Below, piece by piece: positions 37,104 to 38,851 of a stretch of DNA of 49,728 nt (the stretch's first letter is position 1; each line of letters begins with the position of its first letter). A program made the position numbers and the translations under genes. The notes below the pieces were generated by a model. The model was not told the origin of the DNA, made no database searches, and saw nothing but the letters and a program-made list of their open reading frames with translations. Origin of the DNA: Clostridiales bacterium (GTDB lineage Bacteria > Bacillota > Desulfotomaculia > Desulfotomaculales > VENG01); assembly GCA_016278505.1 (NCBI GenBank), contig JADQBQ010000042.1, forward strand, positions 1-49,728, written 5' to 3'.

Positions 37104-37511
37104 AACTGAAAACTATATCAAAAAGCCATGACGGGGAAAAGTAGCCGGACCCCATCTCTTCAGGGAGGAAGCGCCGTGACTGGAAGCGTTTCCAGAGAAT
37201 GATCCGTTGAAGTTCTCCCCCGAGTTGCCGGGCTGAAACCGCGCGTGCAAGTAGGTTCGGACGGAAATTTCCACCGTTAAAAGGAAAGGGGTATTAGGAG
37301 CTTTTCCCGTACCCTTTTAAAGAGTGGGTTTATATAACCAACTAGGGTGGTACCGCGAGCTTTTCGTCCCTTCGGATGAAAAGCTTTTTTTAATGGGATT
37401 TACCCTTTAGAAACGGTTCCCTTATCCTAGAGTGGGTTATGATATTACCAATCAAGGTGGTACCGCGGAAGTCCGTCCTTTCGTCCTTGTCAGGACTTGC
37501 GGGCTTTTTTT
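37104..37511 (+). promoter_or_regulatory. Phe-type T-box riboswitch with two antiterminator/terminator modules
   Basis: Stem I foot CGGGGA (37132) pairs with TCCCCCG (37216). The specifier loop has AGTA (37140-37143) on the 5' side and GAA-G-TTC on the 3' side, so the specifier codon is TTC (37213-37215), phenylalanine. Loop motifs (GGAAGCG, CCAGAGAATG) lie between. The first T-box AGGGTGGTACCGCG is at 37344-37357, with terminator GAGCTTTTCGTCC...GAAAAGCTTTTTTT at 37357-37391. A second copy, AAGGTGGTACCGCGG at 37454-37468, has its own terminator ending in seven T at 37511. Each is preceded by a similar AGAGTGGGTTATxATATxACCAA stretch, so stem III plus antiterminator was duplicated. UGGU pairs with an A at tRNA position 73, which fits tRNA-Phe. 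The 3' module ends 30 bases before the ligase start. Confidence 0.93.
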
Positions 37512-37540
37512 AGTTTAAGAAAATTAAGGAGTGGGATAGG

Positions 37541-38851
37541 ATGGGATTACTAAAGTATTGGGATGAAAAACATGAAACCATGTCCAGGCAGGATATCGAA
37601 CAATTACAATTAAGTCGTCTGCAAGAGACTGTCAACAAGGTAAATAAAACTGTACCTTTCTACCAAAAAGCATTTAAAGACAAAGGCATTGAACCGGGTG
37701 ACATTAAAAGTCTGGATGACCTGAAGCACCTACCGTTCACCTCCAAGCAGGACCTGCGGGACCAGTATCCCTATGGCCTGTTCGCTGTACCCATGGATGA
37801 TGTAGTAAGACTGCACGCATCATCAGGTACCACAGGAAAACCTACGGTAGTTGGTTATACCGCGGGAGATATCCAGAGGTGGTCCAACCTCATTGCACGG
37901 TGCCTGGTTATTGGCGGCGGTGATAGAAAAAGCGTGGTCCAAAATGCTTACGGCTATGGCTTATTCACCGGCGGTATGGGTGTACATTACGGTGCTGAGT
38001 GTCTGGGCGCCACTGTTGTCCCCATCTCCGGCGGCAATACCGGGAGGCAGCTGATGCTGATGCAGGATTTTGCCACCACTATTCTTACCTGCACCCCGTC
38101 TTACGCCTTGTACCTGGGCGACTCCGGTGCCGAGGCCGGATTGGACTTTCGATCCTTACCCCTTAGAACCGGCATATTCGGCGCGGAACCCTGGTCCGAA
38201 AACATGCGCAAACAGCTTGAGGAAAAATTAAACATAACCGCCCTGGACATATACGGCCTCAGTGAAGTAATGGGCCCGGGGGTAGCCATGGAATGCCCGG
38301 TTAAACAGGGCTCACATATTTTTGAAGATCATTTCATAGCCGAAGTTATTGATCCTGATACCGGAGAACATCTACCCCCCGGCGAACAAGGAGAACTTGT
38401 CCTCACAACCATAACCAAGGAAGCTCTTCCTGTTATTCGCTACCGCACCCGGGACATTACCGTACTGGATTACGAAAAATGTGAGTGCGGCAGGACCCAC
38501 GTACGCATGAAGCGGGTAACCGGCAGGACCGATGATATGCTGATCATCCGCGGCGTAAATGTATTCCCCTCCCAGGTAGAAAGCGTACTGTTGGAGTTCG
38601 GGGAGGCGGAACCACACTACATGATCGAGGTCTACCGCAAGGGCGAGCTGGACACCATGGAAATCCAGGTGGAACTTTCCGAGAAAATGTTTTCGGATAC
38701 CATTCGCAACCTGGAAGGTTTGGAACACCGCATCAGGTCCAGGATATTAAGTGTATTAAATATAAGCGCCCGGGTTAAGTTTGTAGAATCAAAATCCCTG
38801 CCCAGGAGTGAAGGTAAAGCAAAACGCGTAATCGACCACCGCAAGCTTTAA
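37541..38851 (+). CDS. paaK: Phenylacetate-CoA ligase
   Basis: 436 residues, ATG behind AAGGAGTGGG. ANL-superfamily adenylating enzyme: [19 protein letters not shown] (P-loop), [54 protein letters not shown], and the C-terminal hinge [21 protein letters not shown] with [34 protein letters not shown]. It makes phenylacetyl-CoA (or a related aryl-acetyl-CoA) from the acid, CoA and ATP. The leader is a Phe T-box, so expression should rise when tRNA-Phe is uncharged; this points to aryl-acid salvage into phenylalanine rather than breakdown (inference). No indolepyruvate oxidoreductase gene is in the window. Confidence 0.95.

Follow-up and report, generated by a model that had tools for sequence, protein, structure and literature searches.

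We characterised a phenylalanine T-box leader at positions 37119-37513 of the window, by which we mean the whole 49,728-nt stretch of DNA from a Clostridiales bacterium that was analysed. The leader lies on the forward strand, as do all features given below, and consists of one stem I followed by two modules, each with its own stem III, antiterminator and terminator. We interpret it as two serial transcription checkpoints behind one tRNA-binding domain, belonging to a wider family in which a hairpin, here called P, would relay the sensor from the first module to the second, and we give this interpretation a probability of roughly 0.5. For the polymerase to arrive at the paaK-like gene, uncharged tRNA-Phe on stem I would have to stabilise first antiterminator 1 and afterwards antiterminator 2. 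With charged tRNA either terminator could act, and leak-through would therefore be multiplied down.

The leader belongs to the class I (transcriptional) T-boxes judging from its covariance-model score, a specifier which fits the pathway, and the presence of a competing antiterminator. The Rfam cmscan search resulted in a match to RF00230 at 37119-37374 with 110.7 bits (gathering threshold 93), the sole match above gathering in the window, while module 2 alone produced a sub-threshold match of 48.6 bits at 37278-37483. According to this alignment the only stem I spans 37119-37225, and the specifier position of the model falls on TTC at 37213-37215 (in GAA-G-TTC-T). Applying the specifier position rule, we take TTC to be a Phe codon, and the PaaK-like gene located downstream fits this pathway. 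The alignment further places stem II with stem IIA/B at 37226-37279 (ending CCGTTA), stem III of module 1 at 37321-37343 and antiterminator 1 at 37344-37371 with its UGGU at 37348-37351. Terminator 1 with its U tract (37357-37391) was identified by folding and a terminator scan and overlaps the antiterminator. In module 2, stem III (37429-37452) was recognised by sequence as a repeat of the first one. Antiterminator 2 (37453-37489, UGGU at 37458-37461) was recognised by its fold (-11.6 kcal/mol, z -1.9) and the weak RF00230 match, and it is overlapped in turn by terminator 2 with its U tract (37467-37511), located by folding. The regulated gene at 37541-38851 encodes a phenylacetate--CoA ligase-like protein of the PaaK family, which scored 591.6 bits with TIGR02155, under the curated cut-off of 646.3, and contains the Pfam domains AMP-binding and AMP-binding_C_2.

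The T-box sequence GGTGGTACCGCG is present twice, at 37346-37357 and 37456-37467. The stem III stretch AGAGTGGGTT...ACCAA, which the sequence-only reading had described as duplicated too, is indeed found at 37321-37341 and again at 37429-37451. Neither inspection of the sequence nor the RF00230 scan of the window revealed a stem I between the modules, and there is no room for one, because the approximately 100 nt separating the T-box sequences are occupied by terminator 1, a short linker and stem III. The arrangement proposed in that reading, a single specifier stem with two complete modules and tRNA-Phe as the expected ligand, is thus confirmed by the sequence with its TTC specifier, the RF00230 scan and the folds. 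The first terminator, on whose function the earlier proposal depended, is plausible with -18.1 kcal/mol and a z of -5.1. The second is predicted at -16.2 kcal/mol, with a z of only -1.3 and 22 of 200 shuffles equally good; the simple terminator scan called the first and missed the second.

Having one stem I and at least two antiterminator/terminator units, the leader can be classified from its sequence as a partially tandem T-box. It is not a fully tandem T-box, as it carries no second complete sensor. Vitreschak et al. 2008 (RNA 14:717) reportedly described a T-box class with duplicated terminator-antiterminator elements, which resembles the window leader, as partially tandem T-boxes do, in having one stem I and more than one antiterminator/terminator. 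Their work is cited in PMC2965389. Partially tandem T-boxes are acknowledged in a 2020 review, where their mode of action is given as unknown (PMC7583486), and the layout is therefore not the novelty for which it had been taken. The idea of a sharper response had likewise been put forward before, as PMC9413887 says of double T-boxes that they 'might function cooperatively leading to a sharper response'. Fully tandem T-boxes, in which complete sensing and regulatory domains are repeated according to PMC12452182, are similar to the window leader in their serial checkpoints and in the steeper response expected from them, but they repeat the sensor, whereas the window family has a single one.

The same partial duplication, which had been suggested as something to look for in relatives, turned out to be widespread. 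Using a pattern of two modules about 100-150 nt apart, we recovered it in 63 of the 113 genomes of the order, a count that leaves out modules matched to tRNAs whose discriminator base differs, because the pattern demands GGTGGTAMC, a near-consensus T-box sequence. The reversed control pattern was found in 0 genomes, and a class-level search gave the same 113 genomes. The pattern was also present in 37 of 398 genomes of a phylum sample, namely 11 of 15 from the own order and 26 of 383 others (split counted by hand). Judged by these motif counts, the two-module layout appears commoner than chance. A DNA search matched 87 of 100 relatives, and most of the 30 loci taken from relatives (L019 to L048, window included) display two modules; L029, L031 and L045 have one by the motif used. 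In L037 (G099:C30) the modules are 253 nt apart, compared with the usual distance of about 120, with an insert of about 130 nt between terminator 1 and R2 (see below). By eye this insert seems to be rich in inverted repeats and is perhaps a small mobile insertion.

Altogether we collected 115 distinct two-module leaders, and GAANTTC is located upstream in 113 of them (by a regular expression not tied to the specifier position). The downstream genes were grouped by BLAST clusters, which we named from our own reading of the cluster representatives: 69 DAHP synthase, 17 Liv-type ABC binding protein, 11 sodium/solute symporter, 10 paaK, 4 another ABC binding protein and 4 singletons. This set bears on the notion that module 2, being either a duplicate in decay or nothing more than a back-up terminator, takes no separate regulatory decision. 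Such a notion would suit the window, where terminator 2 barely beats shuffles and the R2 strand described below is diverged. Across the 115 leaders, in the order and beyond it, stem III, the T-box sequence and the competing antiterminator are nevertheless kept, with the reservation that the search pattern itself demanded a near-consensus T-box sequence. This argues against a plain terminator, which would not need these parts, and we consider the notion improbable.

Hairpin P (37285-37318) sits between stem IIA/B and stem III and joins the sensor to module 1. Its 5′ strand, L1, lies at about 37285-37299 and its 3′ strand, R1, at about 37305-37318; the fold in the window has -14.1 kcal/mol with a z of -1.8. 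Relatives share the hairpin as GTATCGG/GTATAAGG...CCGTAY, with L1 in the family form GGGTATCGGAA or GGGTATAAGGAA and R1 in the form TTCCCGTACC. Module 2 is preceded by a copy of the 3′ strand only, called R2, and L1 stays single. Comparison with relatives shows that R2 of the window (37417-37427) is a diverged copy, TTCCCTTATCC in place of the family form TTCCCGTACC. In the relatives, R2 ranks with the best-kept parts of module 2. The distance between the P strand and the T-box sequence is similar in both modules, with medians of 38 and 35 nt.

To relate R2 to the second module, we used the 55 loci with hairpin P and module 1 that were returned from approximately 118 matches (our own count). 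A second module is present in 45 of them and absent from 10, as counted by hand: L175 and L180 were called single by the script and proved to be two-module on inspection, and a distant second match in L157 was not taken as a module. The R2 motif (CCCGTA, CCTGTA or CCCATA) occurs in 35 of the 45 two-module loci versus 0 of the 10 single-module loci, and by this motif R2 seems to be tied to the second module. Three single-module T-boxes (L149, L151 and L160) display a GCC specifier, Ala-like by a loose match, together with the same hairpin P, which is thus not confined to Phe leaders.

The strands of hairpin P and of module 2 fit each other in a leader-specific manner. We managed to segment 97 of the 115 leaders, the other 18 being dropped because the F-box, R1, R2 or terminator was missed by the regular expressions or the spacer was over-long. 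Two further leaders were dropped for a weak R2, and 95 entered the tests of complementarity, energy and R1/R2 likeness; free folding was done on 114. Own and swapped strands were compared using double-centred duplex energies in 33 clusters at 80 % identity with 20,000 permutations. The upper strand of L1 paired with R2 gave z -10.9 and the L1 loop paired with the extension of R2 gave z -6.6, both with 0 permutations as extreme, and the tail of R1 paired with X, the strand after terminator 1, gave z -4.8 with 1 as extreme. Controls had z of -1.1, -1.1 and -3.1 with the 33 clusters and -3.4, -0.5 and -2.5 with 17 clusters, so part of the signal may reflect shared ancestry, at a level far below the observed values. 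The naive permutation (n=95) resulted in z -15.7 for L1 with R2 and z -8.5 for the tail with X. Fixed-register column covariation of L1:R2 gave moderate support only, because bulges shift the register. Among 8 two-module leaders outside the set used for building the tests, the pairing was clearly own-specific in only 2, one of the eight (L150) having a segment badly cut by the rule.

Complementarity between L1 and R2 could also have arisen with no selection for pairing, if R1 had been duplicated independently several times or copied into R2, and the core of R2 is clearly akin to R1 (TTCCCGTACC). However, the flanks of R1 and R2 show no unusual likeness within a leader (z 1.6), which leaves copying from R1 to R2 unsupported. 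Many R2 strands reach past R1 to match the hairpin loop of their own L1, that is, bases out of the reach of R1, with 10 extra pairs after GG:CC in L081-L083, 9 in L130 and 8 in L069. Moreover, the tail is also matched by X, although module 1 contains nothing equivalent to X. Repeated duplication or copying thus has little probability in our estimation.

The predicted energies point in the same direction; they describe equilibrium folding of the RNA without tRNA. We compared the exchanged state, in which L1:R2 and tail:X could form while L1:R1 and local pairs were excluded, with the reverse. The prediction favoured the exchanged state in 86 of the 95 leaders, with a median of -5.9 kcal/mol. Mean numbers of expected pairs were 10.1 for L1:R2, 2.2 for L1:R1 and 0.6 for R2 with a local partner. 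The last value rules out a local hairpin for R2 as a general rule, although such a hairpin is favoured in some leaders (e.g. L053, L078, L097 and L122). In free folding, 92 of the 114 leaders reached 10 or more expected pairs joining the P region to the linker that follows terminator 1 (DAHP synthase 53/69, Liv-type 15/17, symporter 10/11, paaK 7/10, the other ABC group 4/4, others 3/3). Swapped linkers gave group means of 7 to 10 pairs, and own pairings were higher. The consensus fold of 59 GTATCGG-type leaders has L1 with R2, and in that of 14 GTATAAGG-type leaders L1 stays with R1. The MAFFT-based consensus folds therefore contain L1:R2 in one type only, and tail:X was never seen in them.

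These pairings are nested, L1:R2 enclosing tail:X and tail:X enclosing module 1. As the polymerase makes X and R2 only once it has gone through terminator 1, these pairings are most simply read as an exchange that runs in one direction and follows the first checkpoint. In the wider family, L1 would pair with R1 while module 1 alone is transcribed. Once the polymerase has passed terminator 1, X would pair with the R1 tail and R2 with L1, and this cotranscriptional exchange would loop out module 1 and bring the second stem III with antiterminator 2 into place behind the same tRNA-bound sensor. Hairpin P is probably what makes serial use of one sensor possible in the wider family. The tRNA would then have to stay bound and be read again by module 2. 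Somewhat more tentatively than the interpretation as a whole, we suggest that the relay hands one tRNA-bound sensor over to the second antiterminator, and that charging would be checked twice at the same site in a proofreading-like manner.

Regarding the window leader itself, the exchange is disfavoured by 7.8 kcal/mol, the worst value of the 95, and only 0.3 long-range pairs are expected, the worst of the 114. The relay pairing predicted for two other leaders of the same genome, L004 (-10.2) and L010 (-5.5), was not found here. According to these predictions the exchange pairing of the window has largely decayed, so that this leader shares the layout but illustrates the relay poorly, and its module 2 would therefore dock more loosely or be a weaker checkpoint. 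The loss may indicate a decaying relay, or re-docking may be a refinement rather than a need. The window could even be taken to show two independent checkpoints with no relay, module 2 reaching the tRNA on stem I by flexibility and R2 being a leftover of the duplication, for its R2 is diverged and its exchange unfavourable, yet stem III, the T-box sequence and terminator 2 are intact. In the relatives, by contrast, R2 is well kept, finds almost no partner locally and matches the L1 of its own leader, loop bases included; we find independent checkpoints unlikely, albeit worth serious consideration.

The sequence-only reading had left open whether one tRNA acts twice or two tRNAs act in turn. 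The sequence does not decide this; the comparative evidence from relatives favours one sensor position used twice, and the window copy gives no such support. A second uncharged tRNA might place its 3′ end on antiterminator 2 while the first holds antiterminator 1, or module 2 might sense a different state. Both modules have the full UGGU bulge, and isolated antiterminators can bind tRNA weakly. However, there is a single anticodon-binding domain, and any second tRNA would therefore be bound unspecifically; we regard its involvement as very improbable compared with repeated use of one sensor.

The proposed relay has a likely parallel in the yxjA purine riboswitch, whose exchange reportedly sets one terminator, whereas the relay would move a sensor between expression modules. 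The riboswitch study describes cotranscriptional strand exchange, and in both cases a later strand displaces an earlier pairing (PMC9756952). No description of hairpin P, the R2:L1 pairing or the relay was found in the full-text literature on duplicated or tandem T-boxes and T-box strand exchange, a body of text with subscription papers mostly outside it. The passage on partially tandem T-boxes in PMC7583486 gives no mode of action, whereas here we have a duplicated P strand and leader-specific pairing with L1. As far as we searched, a half-duplicated hairpin that pairs in a leader-specific way has not been described, and the partially tandem class was already known.

The assembly to which the window belongs contains 18 matches to RF00230. 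Three of its leaders combine one stem I, two modules and the specifier TTC: the window leader, L004 and L010. L004 precedes a gene presumably encoding a Liv-type ABC binding protein and L010 one presumably encoding DAHP synthase, names which we assigned from the protein sequences, the PaaK-like protein alone having been scanned with profiles. A tRNA-Phe gene was not detected in the 56-contig draft, either among its 48 tRNA matches, inspected directly or within neighbouring loci, or by two pattern searches. Another T-box of this genome, L003 (C18 51635-51927), carries within its stem III loop a tRNA-Ala gene with the anticodon GGC (L003:1664-1739), the sole tRNA-Ala among the 48 matches of the draft assembly; the gene behind this T-box starts like an acyl-CoA ligase. 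A weak RF00230 match of 30.4 bits at C19:106639-106752 (L018:1501-1614) has no recognisable T-box sequence and could be either a chance match or a remnant of stem I.

Together, the window leader, L004 and L010 control paaK-like, Liv-type transporter and DAHP synthase genes, a hint that phenylalanine might be made from imported phenylacetate. The DAHP synthase, paaK and Liv-type transporter genes suggest a Phe regulon that includes phenylalanine synthesis from phenylacetate. On the comparative evidence, the way in which partially tandem T-boxes act can be put as a definite structure whose strands are named and which can be tested. If our interpretation is true, the family would represent a natural RNA device in which one sensor is shifted from one expression platform to another and tRNA charge is checked multiplicatively.
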